Below, one piece after another: positions 3,763 through 50,453 of a stretch of 64,000 nt of DNA. The translations under genes and the position numbers were made by a program. Every line of letters starts with the position of its first letter. Position 1 is the stretch's first letter. Origin of the DNA: Nitrospira tepida (GTDB lineage: Bacteria > Nitrospirota > Nitrospiria > Nitrospirales > Nitrospiraceae); contig NZ_OX365700.1 in assembly GCF_947241125.1 (NCBI RefSeq), positions 3,194,001 to 3,258,000 of the forward strand, in the 5' to 3' direction. The notes beneath the pieces were generated by a model. The model had not been told where the DNA came from. It saw only the letters and a list, made by a program, of their open reading frames with translations, and searched no databases.

Positions 3763-5568
3763 TCAGGCACCGGAGCGATCCCCTTCTCCTTTGAGCTGAA
3801 GCGCCAGGTCGCGGCGGCTGAGCCGATCGCGCAGAATCCAGTCCGCAGCCTCGGCCATGCTCTCGGCGACATGGTCGGGTGGCCGACCCTCATCGCGCAT
3901 CCGAGCCAGATCGTGCCGGCTGTCCTCGCCGGACAACAGCAACACCGTTCCGGCTCCGACCCTCTGTCCCGCTATGACGTCGCGCGCACGATCGCCGAGG
4001 ACATACAGGCTCGTCCGATCAAGGTCGTGCTCGCGACAGGCCTGCTCGATCAGTCCCGTCTCGGGCTTGCGGCAACGACAGCCGTCATCCGGATGATGCG
4101 GACAGACATAGAGGCCCGTCAATACCGCCCCCTGCTGCGCCAACTGGTCGCCAAGCCGTTTGTGAATCGCCTTGAGTTGTTGTCCCGTGATGAGGCCCCT
4201 GGCCACGCCCGATTGGTTGGTGACCACGATCAATGTGGCGCCGGCCGCAGACAGGCGCGCGAGCGCTTCCCCGACCCCGGGCAATAGCTCAAACGCCTCC
4301 GGGTCATTCAGGTACCCCGTGTCCCGGTTCAACGTGCCGTCCCGGTCGAGGAAGACGGTCACGCCGGTTAGAAGATTAGTGCTGGGTGCTGAGTGCTGGG
4401 TGCTGAGAGGTGAATGCTGAGTACTGGGCGCTGAGTGCGCAGGATCAAGTCCAGAGTGCTGGGTGCTGAGTGCTGGGTGCTGAGTGGTCACATCGCCAGT
4501 CTGGGGGCAGGACATCATCGCCTGTCGAGCGACCGCCACGACCTGCTCCACCGTCACGCCGGTCATGCAACGGTGGTCGATCGGGCATTCGCGCAACAGG
4601 CAGGGCGCGCACTCCACCGACGTCCGCACCACCGCGCGACCGTCGCCGAACGGCGCGGTCGTGCGCCAATCCGTCGGGCCGAACACCGCCACCACCGGGA
4701 CGCCGAAGGCCGCCGCGATATGCATCGGCCCCGTGTCGTTGGTCAGGTAAAGCCGGCATCGTTTCGTGATCGCCATCAGCTCCCGAACCGAGGTCCGGCC
4801 GGACAGGACCATCGTCGGGGCTTCGATCTGTCGCGCGATGGCCTCACCCAGCTCCTCTTCCCCTGGAGCGCCGACAATCACCACCTGCGCCGGACGGCCG
4901 GTGCGATCGCGACAGAACGCGGCGATCTTGGACGCCGCTTCAGCAAAACGATCCGGCAACCACCGTTTGGCCGTGCCATAGGTTGACCCGGGGTTGAGCC
5001 CGATCAAGGTTGCTCCGGCCTGCAGACCGAACTCGGCCAGCCGGGCGGCAGCCGCCGCCTCTTCTTCAGGCTTGAGATAGAGTCTCGGCGCGCAGGGTTC
5101 GGTTTCACAGCCGAGTTGCCGCAGCAGTTCCAGATAGTAGGACACCTGATGAGGCACATGGCGAACCTTCGGCACGGCGGTGGTCAATAAGCATCCCCGC
5201 CCGTCGGTCGCGTAGCCGTAACGTCTGGGAATCCCGGCCAGGGCCGTGATGAAGGCCGCTTCAAAGGCATTTTGAAACAGGACCGCCAGGTCGAACTTCC
5301 GGCCGCGTAATTCTTGGGCAAGTTGCCATTTTCCCCAGAGCCCCTGATGCCGGCCCCGGTGGTCGTAGACCATCGACTCCGCCACATCCGGATGGCCGTC
5401 CAGCAACTCGACGATGGAAGGCCGGCCAAGTACCGTCAGGCGAGCCTCCGAAGAGATGCGGCGAAGGGCTCTGATCGCCGGTTCACACATCACCGCATCC
5501 CCAAGCCAATTGGGGACGCGAAGCAGGATCTGCGCGGCATCGCGATACGTCATGGTCCTGGCAGGCAT
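3763..5568 (-). CDS. waaF-gmhB: Fusion: heptosyltransferase II (WaaF) plus heptose 1,7-bisphosphate 7-phosphatase (GmhB)
   Basis: One 601-residue frame carries two enzymes that are normally separate. Residues 1-355 are a GT9 heptosyltransferase II (VPNWLGDAVMCEPAIRAL near 18-35, NDTGPMHIAAA at 277-287, the Cys-rich CAPCLLRECP near 320). Residues 400-601 are a HAD phosphatase of the GmhB type, with the nucleophile motif DRDGT (408-412), GYLNDPEAF, and the zinc-binding CPHHPDDGCRC stretch. The linker at about 359-398 is low complexity (repeats of STQHS, TQHP) and is encoded by a degenerate TGCTGGG/TGCTGAG repeat of a kind otherwise seen between genes. The start ATG at 5568 overlaps the stop of lpxK. 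GmhB makes heptose 1-phosphate, a precursor of the ADP-heptose used by WaaF. Whether both halves stay joined in the cell is unknown. Confidence 0.88.
   Translation of the reverse strand: MPARTMTYRDAAQILLRVPNWLGDAVMCEPAIRALRRISSEARLTVLGRPSIVELLDGHPDVAESMVYDHRGRHQGLWGKWQLAQELRGRKFDLAVLFQNAFEAAFITALAGIPRRYGYATDGRGCLLTTAVPKVRHVPHQVSYYLELLRQLGCETEPCAPRLYLKPEEEAAAAARLAEFGLQAGATLIGLNPGSTYGTAKRWLPDRFAEAASKIAAFCRDRTGRPAQVVIVGAPGEEELGEAIARQIEAPTMVLSGRTSVRELMAITKRCRLYLTNDTGPMHIAAAFGVPVVAVFGPTDWRTTAPFGDGRAVVRTSVECAPCLLRECPIDHRCMTGVTVEQVVAVARQAMMSCPQTGDVTTQHPALSTQHSGLDPAHSAPSTQHSPLSTQHSAPSTNLLTGVTVFLDRDGTLNRDTGYLNDPEAFELLPGVGEALARLSAAGATLIVVTNQSGVARGLITGQQLKAIHKRLGDQLAQQGAVLTGLYVCPHHPDDGCRCRKPETGLIEQACREHDLDRTSLYVLGDRARDVIAGQRVGAGTVLLLSGEDSRHDLARMRDEGRPPDHVAESMAEAADWILRDRLSRRDLALQLKGEGDRSGA
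4378..4488. repeat. Degenerate GTGCTGGGTGCTGA repeat inside the waaF-gmhB frame
   Basis: About 110 bp made of imperfect copies of TGCTGGG and TGCTGAG (plus-strand reading), with a less repetitive stretch near 4435-4455. The repeat stays in frame and encodes the Ser/Thr/Gln/His/Pro linker between the two enzyme domains. Its composition differs sharply from the surrounding coding sequence. Confidence 0.9.
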
Positions 5569-6611
5569 CAGAAGAACCGCTCGTTCAACATTGCCAGGAG
5601 GGTCGCCTCGCCGGATTTGAACCGAGGTTCCAGCCGCACGGCCCACCAGGTATGGCCGAGACCGACCAATTCCGCCAGTTTGCAGGCGTCCTTCTCGGTC
5701 GTCACGATGAGGTCGGCGCCGCAAGCCTCCGCCCGCCTCTGGGCAGCCTCGACTTCTGCGGCGCGATAGGCGTGATGGTCTCGAAACTTCACGTGCTGGA
5801 CGATCTCCAGGCCCATCTCACGAAGCACCCGCTCGAACGAGGCTGGATTGCCGATGGCGCTGACCGCGACGGCGGTCTTGCCCTTGGCGGCGGTTCCGTC
5901 CATCTCGGCGCCCTGCCGGATATTGACGAGGCGCTCCGGCACGAAATCGACTTCCACGGGAACGATTCGATGGCCCAGCGCCTCTTCCACGAGCCTGACC
6001 ACCCTCTGTCCTCCGTTCCCCTCGCTGGCGCGGGTGATGATCAGGGTCGAACCTCGCGCCGCGGCGGTCAACGGTTCCCGCAGACGCCCGAACGGAAAGT
6101 GGCCCTTCAGCCCCTCCACGTCGGTCGCGTCCATCAACAGCAGATTGAGGTCCCGCCAGAGCGACAGGTGCTGGAATCCGTCGTCCAGGACCATGTCATC
6201 GATCGGAACGCGATTCAACAGCCAACGGCCCAGCTCATACCGGTCCCGGCCGACGGCGACGATGGCCCTTGGGCACCGACGGGCGATCAGAAACGGCTCG
6301 TCGCCCGCCTCCAGCGGGTTGGCCAAGAGATGGTGCCCGTCGGACACCAACAGATGAGCCTCTTGGCTACTGCGTCGATAGCCGCGGCTGAGCACGGCTA
6401 CCCTCCGGCCCTGCTCCACCAACTGTTGCACGGTCCAGATCACCATCGGCGTTTTGCCCGTTCCGCCGACCGTGAGGTTGCCGATGCTGACCACCCGCAC
6501 GGGCAACCGGTTGGTGCGCAGCAGTCCCCCACGATAGCAGGCGGCCCGGCATCGGGAGGCCAGTTCATAGGGTAGCGACAACAGCCTCATCAGTGACTGC
6601 GGGGCTCCCAC
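5568..6611 (-). CDS. lpxK: Tetraacyldisaccharide 4'-kinase
   Basis: LpxK phosphorylates the 4' position of tetraacyldisaccharide 1-phosphate to give lipid IVA, at the inner membrane. The 347-residue protein has an N-terminal hydrophobic patch, the P-loop [12 protein letters not shown] at 44-55, the LSRGYRR motif and the DDGFQH motif, all characteristic of the family. The start is a GTG at 6611, supported by GAGGT about 8 nt upstream and lying 6 bp after waaA. It overlaps the waaF-gmhB start by 4 bp. The normal order waaA-lpxK is kept. Confidence 0.95.
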
Positions 6612-12705: not shown

Positions 12706-12791
12706 AGACTCCGTTAATCGTGAAGCGTCAACCGTGAACCGTGAAGGCGAAGCTTGTCTTATAGAGTATCTTCTCGGTTAACGAATAACGT
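12706..12791. repeat. Intergenic block of GTTAA/CGTGAA repeats
   Basis: This 86-bp, more AT-rich gap contains repeated words: CCGTGAACCGTGAA, then GGTTAACGAATAACGTTTAACG. The TAA stop of lpxI is part of the block. The words can pair partly with each other, so a hairpin is possible. The same word set occurs at 14449-14533 and, weaker, at 8703-8783. Confidence 0.55.
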
Positions 12792-13649
12792 TTAACGATG
12801 AACGTCCCCGCGCAGTCCCACAATGGCGATACCCGCGCGGTTGGCCGCCTGGAGCATCTCTGCCCGGTCCAACAGCACGCTGCGCCCCGCTTCGAGCGCC
12901 AACACGTTCGCCTTGACCGACCGCATCACCTCGATGGTGCGCGGCCCCACGGCCGGAAGGTCGAAGCGCAGGTCCTGCTGCGGCTTGCTTCGCTTGACGA
13001 CCACCGCCCCGCCCGCGGCCAGCTCGCCACCCCGTCGAATGGCCCCGTCCGTTCCCTCGACGGCTTCCACCGCCACGACAACACGGTCCTTAACCACCAC
13101 GCATTGGCCGATGTCGAGGCGGCCGATGTCGCGCGCCACCTCCCAACCGTATCGAATGTCCTCCCATTCCTTGTCGGTCGGCTTCCGGCTGGAGAGGACG
13201 CCCTCCTCCACCAACACGCCTTCCAGGCCGAAGGTGGACTCCCGGATCATGATCCCTTCGCGCTCCAGCTCGGCGGCGAACTCGCGCAGGATGTCGTCGT
13301 CCCGCCAGATCGCCAGGCGGGCGGCCATGGCCAACGTGCGGAAGTCCGGCCGCACGGTCGTGAAGACGTGGGTCTTCTTCACTCCCCCGAGCATGACCGC
13401 TTCCGTCACGCCCTCGCTCTTCAACGCCTGAACCAGCTTGTTGAGTTGGCCGATTTTGATCCAGTGGATGCGATCGACATGGTCGGCCAGCTCCGGCTCC
13501 GTTTCGCCGACATGCGCGACCGCGTAGACCTGATAGCCCAACCGACGGGCGTTGTCGGCGAAGATCACCGGAAAGCGCCCGTTGCCGGCGATCAACCCGA
13601 TGCGCCGCGCCTCGGTCGCGGACCCAGCCTCGCGGCTCATGTCACTCAT
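12792..13649 (-). CDS. lpxI: UDP-2,3-diacylglucosamine pyrophosphatase, LpxI type (DUF1009)
   Basis: LpxI hydrolyses UDP-2,3-diacylglucosamine to lipid X and UMP and replaces LpxH in many non-enteric lineages. The 285-residue protein shows the family features IGLIAGNGRFPVIFADNAR near 18-36, VMLGGVKK near 105, the FGLEGVLVEEGVLS segment and the AVEAVEGTDGAIRRGG motif. It overlaps lpxA by 8 bp if the ATG at 13649 is used; an internal ATG at 13640 is the alternative. It lies two genes before lpxB, which uses its product. Confidence 0.93.
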   Translation of the reverse strand: MSDMSREAGSATEARRIGLIAGNGRFPVIFADNARRLGYQVYAVAHVGETEPELADHVDRIHWIKIGQLNKLVQALKSEGVTEAVMLGGVKKTHVFTTVRPDFRTLAMAARLAIWRDDDILREFAAELEREGIMIRESTFGLEGVLVEEGVLSSRKPTDKEWEDIRYGWEVARDIGRLDIGQCVVVKDRVVVAVEAVEGTDGAIRRGGELAAGGAVVVKRSKPQQDLRFDLPAVGPRTIEVMRSVKANVLALEAGRSVLLDRAEMLQAANRAGIAIVGLRGDVHR

Positions 13650-46291: not shown

Positions 46292-46572
46292 AGAAATTCC
46301 GTGCATCTTTACCGAGGGTGATAATCAAGAAAACCCGATCGAGCGCCGAACGCCACAGGATCAGGACAGACGATTCTTCTTTGTCAGGGGCACCCGCATC
46401 GCCACCGCTCTAAGAAATCCGGTCGAAGAAATCCGGCGTGGCTATTGACTTGTTGGTACCTTCGTAGGCCATGCTGCTTTATCTTCTTGCTTGCGCGAGA
46501 GGTCCAGGGACGGTCGAAGCAATTACAAGAATAAAGATGAGCAAAGACGAATTCATATGGGGTCTGCGTATG
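46292..46572. other. Relic region left of the RAYT element, with a truncated 5' copy of the 122-aa gene
   Basis: No intact gene is seen. Bases 46486-46557 match the sequence just before and at the start of the 122-aa gene (47609-47688) with a few substitutions and a 9-bp deletion. They include ATGAGCAAAGACGAATTCAT, that is MSKDEFI, after which the frame is cut by the RAYT-bearing unit. The preceding codons, read in another frame, end LKQLQE-stop-like, suggesting the tail of an upstream gene in the original locus. Confidence 0.6.
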
Positions 46573-47582
46573 GGGTCAGGCATGAGTATTGACTTGTTAT
46601 TGTACAAAGACATACGCTCCACGGCATGCCCAGGAAGCCACGCGTGGAGTTTGAGGGGGCGCTCTATCACGTCATTGCCAGGGGCAACCGCCGGGCAGCG
46701 CTCTTTCACGATGATGCCGATTACCAGACCTATCTGGATCGCCTTGAACGGTATCGCCAGCGCGACGGCATGACCCTCTATGCTTACGTTCTTATGGCGA
46801 ATCACGTGCACCTCCTAGTCGAAACCGGCATCGTTCCGCTCTCCCGTACGATGCAGACGCTTCAGTTCACATACAGCCAATATTACAACCGCCGGTATCG
46901 TAAGACCGGCCACCTGTTCCAAGGACGCTACACGGCGATCCTCTGTGACCGGGAAGCCTATCTACTGGAATTGGTTCGCTATCTCCATCTGAATCCGGCC
47001 CGTCTGCGGACGCCCCTGAACCCCTGGTCTTATAAGTGGAGCAGCCACCGCGCCTACCTGGGAGAGTCAGGGACCGTGCAGGTGCAATCGGCCACGGTGC
47101 TCGACCAGTTCCACCGCCAACTGGGGCCGGCCCGGCAGGCATATCTGCAATTTCTCAAAGCCGGGATCAGACAGGGGCATGACGAGCGCTACTATGAGAC
47201 GGTGGACCAGCGGTTTCTTGGAGATGCACGGTTTGTGGCCGAGGTCGGCCGTCGAGCAGGGAAACGCTATCCCGTCACCACCCGACCGCGACGGGTGTCC
47301 TTTGAGCGTCTACTCCACGCCATCGCCGACCTACATGGAGTGATGCCCCACGCCATCTTTGCCCCGGGACGGCGTCGGGCACCGGTCCCAGCACGAGCCA
47401 TGCTGGTGTATCTGGCGCGGGAGTGGGGGGCGGTCAGCACCCAAGAGCTCGGACGACGGCTCCAACGAGACCCATCCATGATCAGCCGGTTGGCCAGTCG
47501 TTATGCGATGCAGCGGGATGACAAGGCGGAAGCCCACCTGAGCAAGGCGTTGAACCAATAAGTCAATACTCATGCCTGACCC
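46573..47582 (+). mobile_element. REP/RAYT-type element, copy 1, with 23-bp inverted repeats
   Basis: GGGTCAGGCATGAGTATTGA at 46573 (23-bp repeat to 46595) is matched by its perfect inverse at 47560-47582. The pair frames a single Y1-type transposase gene, whose TAA stop lies at the edge of the right repeat. Confidence 0.8.
46626..47561 (+). CDS. REP-associated tyrosine transposase (RAYT, Y1_Tnp), copy 1
   Basis: This 311-residue protein has the IS200-like Y1 domain: GALYHVIARGNRR near 11-23, the HUH metal motif in MANHVHLLVE (His60, His62), and the FTYSQYYNRRYRKTGHLFQGR region near 81-101 with the candidate nucleophile Tyr. The C-terminal 85 residues (SFERLLHAIADLHG to SMISRLASRY) resemble a DnaA-like helix-turn-helix. 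RAYTs act on flanking REP-type hairpins by single-strand cleavage. The protein is identical to copy 2 at 48441. Confidence 0.92.
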   Translation: MPRKPRVEFEGALYHVIARGNRRAALFHDDADYQTYLDRLERYRQRDGMTLYAYVLMANHVHLLVETGIVPLSRTMQTLQFTYSQYYNRRYRKTGHLFQGRYTAILCDREAYLLELVRYLHLNPARLRTPLNPWSYKWSSHRAYLGESGTVQVQSATVLDQFHRQLGPARQAYLQFLKAGIRQGHDERYYETVDQRFLGDARFVAEVGRRAGKRYPVTTRPRRVSFERLLHAIADLHGVMPHAIFAPGRRRAPVPARAMLVYLAREWGAVSTQELGRRLQRDPSMISRLASRYAMQRDDKAEAHLSKALNQ

Positions 47583-47666
47583 TTTTGCTCTGACTTTTGC
47601 TCTCCTTTTGCTTGCGCGAGAGGACCAGGGGCGGTTGAAGCAATTGCAAGAATTACAAGAATAAAG

Positions 47667-48035
47667 ATGAGCAAAGACGAATTCATAGATTGGATGTTGT
47701 ACATCATGGATAGGAGTCCAGCTCCGGATTCAGGAGAACGAACGTACGACTATCTCAAAGAACACACCGCGAGGCTTCTTGATCACGAGCCCGAGGAACG
47801 CGGGGTAGCCCTTGAAGCGCTACGCTCGTGGTTGGCGATCCGAAGAGCCCCTGAGAGCATGGTCGCAGCTATGTTAGCTGCAGATCTCAAGTTGATCGAG
47901 TTGCGCGAGGACCTCCATCGACTTCTTGAGGATATTGAGGCGGGACGATCAAACTTCAATCCTCGAATGAAGGCTTATTATGCCGAGAGGGCGCATAACT
48001 ACTTGACAGCGTTGTACAACATCCCGCCTGAATGA
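47667..48035 (+). CDS. Hypothetical 122-aa protein, copy 1
   Basis: I do not recognise this family. The 122-residue acidic, helical protein begins MSKDEFIDWMLYIMD and contains LDHEPEERGVALEALRSWLA and DLKLIELREDLHRLL; no signal peptide, membrane helix or metal motif is seen. It is preceded by a short stop-terminated tail of another frame (RLKQLQELQE) ending just before its ATG, as if it were the second gene of a lost operon. The composition is lower in GC than nearby genes. Copy 2 at 49482 is identical. Confidence 0.65.
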   Translation: MSKDEFIDWMLYIMDRSPAPDSGERTYDYLKEHTARLLDHEPEERGVALEALRSWLAIRRAPESMVAAMLAADLKLIELREDLHRLLEDIEAGRSNFNPRMKAYYAERAHNYLTALYNIPPE

Positions 48036-48099
48036 GCAGCTTGTGCAAGATAACTCTAGGCACAGAACTACTCTGGAATTGTAAATCTTTCGATATGGA

Positions 48100-48300
48100 A
48101 TCAGTCCCGAGCAAGCCCCCACCTGAAATCAAACCCCGTTCGCGCAACTTCTTCCGAATCAACTCCGCGACCCGCCGATGACCTTCGGGTGAAAAGTGCA
48201 TCGGATCGTTGAGGAGATAGAGTCTGGTCGAGGCTCCTTCCAGGCAATCCAGCACCTGCCAGCGCCTGCCGGAAATCAGCCGGATTTGTTGACAGGCTCA
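48100..48300 (-). pseudogene. C-terminal fragment of an SGNH/GDSL-type hydrolase, copy 1
   Basis: The minus-strand frame reads VLDCLEGASTRLYLLNDPMH then FSPEGHRRVAELIRKKL, matching block V of SGNH hydrolases (the DxxH of the catalytic pair). The N-terminal Ser, Gly and Asn blocks are absent, so it is a remnant. It overlaps, on the opposite strand, a second fragment read into the DUF4321 gene. Confidence 0.6.
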
Positions 48301-48387
48301 AGGGCTTCGGTTATCGTGCGGCCATTCTTCCCGACTACGCTTTTCCCCTCAGCATCCGAGAACGCGCGAGCCTGGGGTCTGCGTATG

Positions 48388-49397
48388 GGGTCAGGCATGA
48401 GTATTGACTTGTTATTGTACAAAGACATACGCTCCACGGCATGCCCAGGAAGCCACGCGTGGAGTTTGAGGGGGCGCTCTATCACGTCATTGCCAGGGGC
48501 AACCGCCGGGCAGCGCTCTTTCACGATGATGCCGATTACCAGACCTATCTGGATCGCCTTGAACGGTATCGCCAGCGCGACGGCATGACCCTCTATGCTT
48601 ACGTTCTTATGGCGAATCACGTGCACCTCCTAGTCGAAACCGGCATCGTTCCGCTCTCCCGTACGATGCAGACGCTTCAGTTCACATACAGCCAATATTA
48701 CAACCGCCGGTATCGTAAGACCGGCCACCTGTTCCAAGGACGCTACACGGCGATCCTCTGTGACCGGGAAGCCTATCTACTGGAATTGGTTCGCTATCTC
48801 CATCTGAATCCGGCCCGTCTGCGGACGCCCCTGAACCCCTGGTCTTATAAGTGGAGCAGCCACCGCGCCTACCTGGGAGAGTCAGGGACCGTGCAGGTGC
48901 AATCGGCCACGGTGCTCGACCAGTTCCACCGCCAACTGGGGCCGGCCCGGCAGGCATATCTGCAATTTCTCAAAGCCGGGATCAGACAGGGGCATGACGA
49001 GCGCTACTATGAGACGGTGGACCAGCGGTTTCTTGGAGATGCACGGTTTGTGGCCGAGGTCGGCCGTCGAGCAGGGAAACGCTATCCCGTCACCACCCGA
49101 CCGCGACGGGTGTCCTTTGAGCGTCTACTCCACGCCATCGCCGACCTACATGGAGTGATGCCCCACGCCATCTTTGCCCCGGGACGGCGTCGGGCACCGG
49201 TCCCAGCACGAGCCATGCTGGTGTATCTGGCGCGGGAGTGGGGGGCGGTCAGCACCCAAGAGCTCGGACGACGGCTCCAACGAGACCCATCCATGATCAG
49301 CCGGTTGGCCAGTCGTTATGCGATGCAGCGGGATGACAAGGCGGAAGCCCACCTGAGCAAGGCGTTGAACCAATAAGTCAATACTCATGCCTGACCC
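48388..49397 (+). mobile_element. REP/RAYT-type element, copy 2
   Basis: Same 23-bp inverted repeats (48388-48410 and 49375-49397) and single transposase gene as copy 1, displaced by 1,815 bp. Confidence 0.8.
48441..49376 (+). CDS. REP-associated tyrosine transposase (RAYT, Y1_Tnp), copy 2
   Basis: The 311-residue protein is identical to copy 1 at 46626: HUH motif in NHVHLLVE, Tyr-rich YSQYYNRRY region and C-terminal DnaA-like helix-turn-helix. Identity at the DNA level suggests a recent duplication. Confidence 0.92.
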   Translation: MPRKPRVEFEGALYHVIARGNRRAALFHDDADYQTYLDRLERYRQRDGMTLYAYVLMANHVHLLVETGIVPLSRTMQTLQFTYSQYYNRRYRKTGHLFQGRYTAILCDREAYLLELVRYLHLNPARLRTPLNPWSYKWSSHRAYLGESGTVQVQSATVLDQFHRQLGPARQAYLQFLKAGIRQGHDERYYETVDQRFLGDARFVAEVGRRAGKRYPVTTRPRRVSFERLLHAIADLHGVMPHAIFAPGRRRAPVPARAMLVYLAREWGAVSTQELGRRLQRDPSMISRLASRYAMQRDDKAEAHLSKALNQ

Positions 49398-49481
49398 TTT
49401 TGCTCTGACTTTTGCTCTCCTTTTGCTTGCGCGAGAGGACCAGGGGCGGTTGAAGCAATTGCAAGAATTACAAGAATAAAG

Positions 49482-49850
49482 ATGAGCAAAGACGAATTCA
49501 TAGATTGGATGTTGTACATCATGGATAGGAGTCCAGCTCCGGATTCAGGAGAACGAACGTACGACTATCTCAAAGAACACACCGCGAGGCTTCTTGATCA
49601 CGAGCCCGAGGAACGCGGGGTAGCCCTTGAAGCGCTACGCTCGTGGTTGGCGATCCGAAGAGCCCCTGAGAGCATGGTCGCAGCTATGTTAGCTGCAGAT
49701 CTCAAGTTGATCGAGTTGCGCGAGGACCTCCATCGACTTCTTGAGGATATTGAGGCGGGACGATCAAACTTCAATCCTCGAATGAAGGCTTATTATGCCG
49801 AGAGGGCGCATAACTACTTGACAGCGTTGTACAACATCCCGCCTGAATGA
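49482..49850 (+). CDS. Hypothetical 122-aa protein, copy 2
   Basis: Identical to the unrecognised 122-residue protein at 47667. It is an acidic, helix-rich cytosolic protein without a known motif. It lies between the RAYT copy 2 and the SGNH fragment. Confidence 0.65.
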   Translation: MSKDEFIDWMLYIMDRSPAPDSGERTYDYLKEHTARLLDHEPEERGVALEALRSWLAIRRAPESMVAAMLAADLKLIELREDLHRLLEDIEAGRSNFNPRMKAYYAERAHNYLTALYNIPPE

Positions 49851-49914
49851 GCAGCTTGTGCAAGATAACTCTAGGCACAGAACTACTCTGGAATTGTAAA
49901 TCTTTCGATATGGA

Positions 49915-50115
49915 ATCAGTCCCGAGCAAGCCCCCACCTGAAATCAAACCCCGTTCGCGCAACTTCTTCCGAATCAACTCCGCGACCCGCCGATGACCTT
50001 CGGGTGAAAAGTGCATCGGATCGTTGAGGAGATAGAGTCTGGTCGAGGCTCCTTCCAGGCAATCCAGCACCTGCCAGCGCCTGCCGGAAATCAGCCGGAT
50101 TTGTTGACAGGCTCA
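49915..50115 (-). pseudogene. C-terminal fragment of an SGNH/GDSL-type hydrolase, copy 2
   Basis: Same remnant as at 48100-48300 (LLNDPMHFSPEGHRRVAELI, DxxH block), shifted by 1,815 bp. Confidence 0.6.
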
Positions 50116-50192
50116 AGGGCTTCGGTTATCGTGCGGCCATTCTTCCCGACTACGCTTTTCCCCTCAGCATCCGAGAACGCGCGAGCCTGTGA
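50028..50192 (+). pseudogene. C-terminal fragment of an unknown gene ending at the DUF4321 start
   Basis: An open plus-strand frame from about 50028 ends RLKGFGYRAAILPDYAFPL, SIRERASL and TGA at 50190-50192, which is directly followed by the ATG of the DUF4321 gene (TGAATG). The coupling and the protein-like sequence suggest the tail of a real gene whose 5' part was lost to the rearrangement. In copy 1 the matching frame runs on into copy 2 instead. The family is not recognised. Confidence 0.45.
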
Positions 50193-50453
50193 ATGAGGAA
50201 ATCGGCCTGGTTACTGTTGGTCTTCATGCTGGTCGGCGGGCTGCTCGGCGGCGTGATGGGCGAAATCCTCCGGGTCATTGCCCCACATGGGACGATTCAA
50301 AGCATCTTCGCCACAAGCCTGACGCCGGGCATCAATCCCCCGCTGACCCTTGATCTCGTCCTCCTCAAAATCACCTTCGGCCTGTCCGTGAAGATGAACC
50401 TGCTTTCCTTCCTCGGCATCATCCTGGGCATGTACCTGTATAAACAAGTTTAG
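50193..50453 (+). CDS. DUF4321 family small membrane protein
   Basis: This 86-residue protein has an N-terminal helix (WLLLVFMLVGGLLGGVMGEI, about 5-24) and a C-terminal helix (MNLLSFLGIILGMYLY, about 68-83), with the LDLVLLKITFGLSVKMN segment typical of DUF4321. The function is unknown. Its ATG follows immediately after the stop of a truncated upstream frame, so it was probably translated by coupling before the rearrangement. It converges with uvrB with 23 bp between. Confidence 0.75.
   Translation: MRKSAWLLLVFMLVGGLLGGVMGEILRVIAPHGTIQSIFATSLTPGINPPLTLDLVLLKITFGLSVKMNLLSFLGIILGMYLYKQV

Follow-up and report, generated by a model that had tools for sequence, protein, structure and literature searches.

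The waaF::gmhB gene of Nitrospira tepida encodes a heptosyltransferase and a GmhB-like phosphatase in one chain, joined by a linker that is mostly written by a dispersed heptamer repeat. The explanation that we favour, and consider probable as a whole, is that the product is an ancient bifunctional enzyme combining WaaF and GmhB, made from the LPS-core operon, and that its disordered linker is a recurrent landing or replacement site for lineage-specific dispersed repeats. At this one site dispersed non-coding repeats have become protein linkers over and over, which makes a clear natural series, and the idea that the repeat created the fusion is corrected.

Complete WaaF and GmhB-like domains in one open frame

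The gene lies in a window of 64,000 nucleotides, by which we mean the whole stretch of DNA that was analysed. Its parts are as follows:

3763..5568, minus strand: waaF::gmhB fusion gene, 601 aa, open frame from the ATG at 5568
4522..5529, minus strand: WaaF / heptosyltransferase II domain (GT9), over cut-off for TIGR02195 and PF01075, confident fold
4384..4500, minus strand: disordered linker, residues 357-395, TTQHPALSTQHSGLDPAHSAPSTQHSPLSTQHSAPST, mostly heptamer-coded, pLDDT about 30
4378..4486, plus strand: degenerate heptamer array TGCTGAG/TGCTGGG, read on the coding strand as CTCAGCA/CCCAGCA, with no stop in three frames
3829..4359, minus strand: GmhB-like D,D-heptose 1,7-bisphosphate phosphatase domain (HAD-IIIA), over cut-off for TIGR01656 and just under for NF006506

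WaaF transfers the second heptose onto the LPS core, and GmhB dephosphorylates heptose 1,7-bisphosphate (at C7), the third step toward ADP-heptose. As a first-pass annotation of this DNA had claimed, a single frame links a complete WaaF to a complete GmhB: the minus strand is open from 5568 to 3763, and both domains are complete by profile and by motifs. No stop or frameshift was seen in the sequence of 4378-4488, where that annotation had allowed for one. The WaaF part is a member of TIGR02195, scoring 193.9 bits where the cut-off is 134.6, over model positions 2-336 of 339 (residues 66-401 when translation is begun upstream, at 5724, which gives 653 aa). The C-terminal part (residues 456-632 of the 653-aa translation) belongs to the HAD-IIIA histidinol-phosphatase/GmhB domain TIGR01656, scoring 139 bits against a cut-off of 84.15. 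Since its scores with the GmhB phosphatase models fall below their cut-offs, slightly for NF006506 (164.6 bits against 178) and also for TIGR00213 (118.9 against 149.6), we call this domain GmhB-like. DRDGT, CPHH...CRC and GDxARD, the catalytic and zinc motifs, are conserved columns in the family alignment. Compared with separate WaaF (TIGR02195) and GmhB (TIGR01656 / NF006506) proteins, the domains are complete and carry the family motifs, but they lie in one chain. In a structure model of the fusion protein both domains are folded with confidence, and pLDDT drops to about 30 in residues 357-395. The domains probably act independently of each other, held on a single tether.

The gene is part of an LPS-core run, in the order msbA-like, acyltransferase, kdtA, lpxK, waaF::gmhB, heptosyltransferase and glycosyltransferases, the msbA and acyltransferase neighbours being named from sequence only. 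Its start codon, the ATG at 5568, overlaps the stop of lpxK in TGATG (an alternative start is the ATG at 5553), and 4 bases separate its 3' end from the start of the heptosyltransferase gene that follows. With the whole fusion protein as query, the sole GmhB-like match in the genome was the fusion itself; an HldE kinase in this genome scores over cut-off, and its GmhA-like genes score below. The sequence upstream of a possible internal start for GmhB contains no ribosome-binding-like motif, and we detected no promoter or terminator at the linker that exceeded the chance level.

The linker is encoded by a dispersed heptamer repeat

Tandem Repeats Finder assigned positions 4378-4486 a period of 7, with 15.6 copies, 66% matches and a score of 90, the maximum in the window. 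None of the other arrays examined is as long as this one, at 119 bp, and the linker, at 64 aa from CMTGVT to FLDRDG, is the longest of 76 family members. The first-pass proposal that a degenerate TGCTGGG/TGCTGAG repeat codes for the linker is therefore confirmed, and the same heptamer is dispersed elsewhere in the genome. Allowing up to 3 mismatches, a 21-mer from the array matched the single-contig genome of 4.73 Mb 61 times, whereas its reversed control never did; the array is not a product of chance. TGCTGRG occurs at no fewer than 27 separate genome sites, in keeping with dispersed heptamer direct repeats of the TAACTGA type, whose 7-bp units stand in tandem at many sites, mainly outside genes. 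Many of the TGCTGRG sites are pairs of inverted arms 17-110 bp apart. Most lie beyond or at the margin of long frames, an intergenic placement judged from open frames and not with a gene caller. The heptamer repeat itself is probably without an enzymatic role.

A second gene of the same genome also contains the heptamer. An Lhr-family helicase (P0002) carries two in-frame heptamer arrays (L132:3109-3178 and L132:3966-4007), which lie in interdomain linkers and directly precede the WH3 and WH4 domains. These stretches vary in all relatives compared, which have different variable inserts there. All three coding arrays are in the CTCAGCA sense, because this sense is free of stops in every frame, whereas the opposite sense meets TGA: computed translations of CTCAGCA repeats give LSTQHSA in all three frames, and TGCTGAG repeats hit TGA in all three.

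The fusion is older than the repeat

The fusion protein was matched in 144 of 147 genomes of the same family, mostly as one open frame of 560-650 aa. We read 76 distinct family linkers directly, each of at least 90 bases; all are fused, and they span 34-64 aa. In the relative L151 (G126:C149:50300-53200) the frame shifts by one base between waaF and gmhB at the linker, through a sequencing error or else a secondary split. Other Nitrospirota families have the same fusion with a 16-aa linker that contains no such repeat. Some relatives are unfused; in L078 (2964-4130), waaF ends ...LLKRAR* and its TAG stop directly abuts the ATG of gmhB (TAGATG), which continues as MITDIAVFLDRDGT. Its homologue L066 (591-2217) is fused at the same junction, reading ...LLKRSRSTTDIAVFLDRDGT, with no repeat. 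This pair shows fusion through loss of a stop at a tight gene junction, without a repeat. Together, the comparisons show that the fusion is older than the repeat, a later occupant of a pre-existing linker. Acidobacterial matches L086, L118 and L121 were considered as fusions and rejected, their parts lying in separate frames.

The first-pass annotation had proposed that the repeat made the fusion by expanding, in this lineage, between two genes that were still separate, so that the stop and start codons were lost, and it had looked to related genomes for separate gmhB and waaF. The array does sit exactly at the domain junction, and elsewhere the heptamer lies chiefly beyond long frames or at their margins. 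However, the repeat was not the maker of the fusion, since fusions with other repeats or none occur across the family and phylum, including the repeat-free 16-aa linkers of other Nitrospirota, and since L066 and L078 document a fusion in which no repeat took part. The family is nearly all fused, and separate genes were found in some relatives (L078) and in Acidobacteria. We regard an origin of the fusion by repeat expansion as very improbable. An assembly or sequencing artefact at the repeat is, if anything, even harder to credit. Short degenerate repeats are prone to mis-assembly, and most relatives are represented by metagenome assemblies, but the genome of the window is a single contig, both domains share one frame with motifs intact, and the fusion recurs in independent assemblies.

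Unrelated repeat families occupy the same linker across the family

The linkers of other species contain nonamers (SGLSGSSG...NQTNQTN), heptamers and octamers, often arranged as inverted repeats. One of eight unrelated repeat families with units of 7-9 bp is present in 45 of the 76 distinct linkers, a count that is partly post hoc, as the motifs were read off the linkers beforehand, and whose bias the controls lessen but do not abolish. The eight motifs occur in 25 of 867 windows of the same length elsewhere in the same frames, and in 1.6% of shuffled linkers. A tree computed with the linker left out requires no fewer than 21 changes of repeat type; it is a quick build, and the grouping of the window branch and of G020 is unsure because both are long. 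The well-sampled genus g18 has Pro/Ala linkers that are free of repeats.

Dispersal of the linker repeats in the genomes that carry them supports a hot spot independently of the post hoc motif count. The nonamer AACCAAACA is dispersed in G036 and G075, and is also abundant in G041, whose linker now carries another family; the reversed control is invalid for this nonamer because the pattern is nearly identical when reversed. CCTCACG is dispersed in G056, and GACTTTCG has 22 matches in G018 versus 0 to 2 in each of 15 other genomes searched. For the CTGACARG family dispersal was barely detected. Linker repeats were shown in this way to match dispersed repeats of their host genomes. One candidate, CTGACAGG, was rejected as a dispersed repeat, having near-zero matches beyond the linkers.

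In six pairs of sister species, both domains share 87-97% nucleotide identity and the linker 44-56%, with sharp borders of divergence at the domain edges; in such sister species one repeat family has replaced another outright, although the flanks are up to 97% identical. The clearest pair is L033/L043 (G099/G056), with nucleotide identities of 97.3% for waaF, 53.5% for the linker and 94.8% for gmhB; one linker is a nonamer hairpin and the other a CCTCACG hairpin. Five blocks diverge within 10.6 kb of these two genomes, and among them it is the linker that reads as a clean swap of repeat families. In 11 kb of synteny at 88% identity, G066 and G080 diverge strongly in one block alone, the linker. 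No insertion or excision of a linker repeat was caught directly among the genomes compared.

How the linker may be rewritten

The comparisons and the structure model show a linker, predicted to be disordered, that accepts foreign sequence provided that it is stop-free and in frame. Dispersed repeats may enter intergenic DNA by copying or recombination and, on rare occasions, interdomain linkers that tolerate them, and selection would retain only those events that are in frame, stop-free and of limited length. Such selection would result in fast turnover of the linker sequence while both domains stay fixed. More tentatively, the linker could be a preferred target for cassette-like exchange of unrelated dispersed hairpin or tandem repeats between close species, through an undescribed process of mobilisation or recombination that also writes disordered linkers into modular proteins such as Lhr helicases; we consider this possible, though the odds are against it. 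Both the movement of short dispersed bacterial repeats and the evolution of linkers in fused enzymes can be tested here by comparison of close species.

The repeats might instead be selected as an RNA or DNA element, in which a hairpin slows the ribosome between the domains or protects the transcript and hairpin-forming repeats are recruited again and again. Many family linkers are inverted repeats, and 26 of 76 fold better than their shuffles at z < -2 (13 of 76 at z < -3). The linker in the window, however, has no inverted repeat and folds worse than shuffles (z of +1.8 and +3.7 in two runs); being less structured than these, it is unlikely to have a role as an RNA hairpin. Moreover, genus g18 does without repeats at this site, and dispersed elements that are palindromic would give hairpins anyway, so that we think selection for such an element unlikely across the family. 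A contingency switch is a still weaker contender, and one that we would be surprised to see borne out. Gain or loss of a heptamer unit would shift the GmhB frame and turn off heptose supply by phase variation, as 7 bp is not a multiple of 3; because the array is open in all frames, slippage would alter only the downstream part, and L151 has a one-base offset between waaF and gmhB. Yet an array with 66% matches is degenerate and should slip slowly, most other linkers are made of 9-bp units or imperfect tandems, and the GmhB frame is preserved in nearly all genomes.

Comparison with known repeats

Precedents exist for translated heptamer repeats and for palindromic elements in frame. The TAACTGA heptamer forms dispersed, mainly intergenic arrays of direct repeats in marine Beggiatoaceae and Cyanobacteria; it has stops in all frames one way, the other way is open and encodes a 7-aa repeat, genic arrays are in the open orientation, and the authors of that study suggest that modular proteins tolerate such arrays between their parts (PMC4679880). 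TGCTGRG shares the dispersal, the mainly intergenic placement and the stop-free orientation logic, but is a different heptamer and is often paired as inverted repeats; furthermore, the WaaF-GmhB linker hosts many unrelated families of repeats, which are swapped between species. The GGGAATC / GGGGAYT heptamers of Xanthomonas and Nostoc likewise form short arrays of 7-bp units, mostly intergenic, and are set apart by forming G-quadruplexes and by depletion in coding DNA (PMC4692102). Rickettsia palindromic elements (RPE) are dispersed palindromes about 150 bp long, whose encoded peptide is conserved and which are found in frame within housekeeping genes that survive them (Ogata et al. 2000, reviewed in PMC10969869). 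Both they and the linker arrays are dispersed repeats translated in frame without destroying the gene, but the latter are 60-120 bp long, consist of 7-9 bp units, encode no conserved peptide and lie in interdomain linkers. The window linker, with an array of 109-119 bp and no inverted repeat, is not an RPE; other family linkers are palindromic yet of many sequences. An open-literature search found no paper on a WaaF-GmhB fusion or on dispersed repeats in Nitrospira, and the swapping of unrelated repeat families within a single interdomain linker, across a whole family, appears to be undescribed in the literature searched.

Other repeats in the window

The window also contains a direct duplication with a spacing of 1815 bp (46558-50373), which holds two identical copies of a transposase gene:

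46626-47561 and 48441-49376, plus strand: Y1_Tnp, RAYT-like transposase with a DnaA-C-like tail

Transposases of the Y1 type are of a kind able to move palindromic repeats; in REP/REPIN systems the repeat adjoins a RAYT gene, whose transposase mobilises it. No TGCTGRG array flanks these copies, and nothing links the transposase to the linker arrays. At 12711-12805, the heptamers GTGAACC/CGTGAAG face GGTTAACGA/TTAACGA, forming another family of repeats with inverted arms in this genome.
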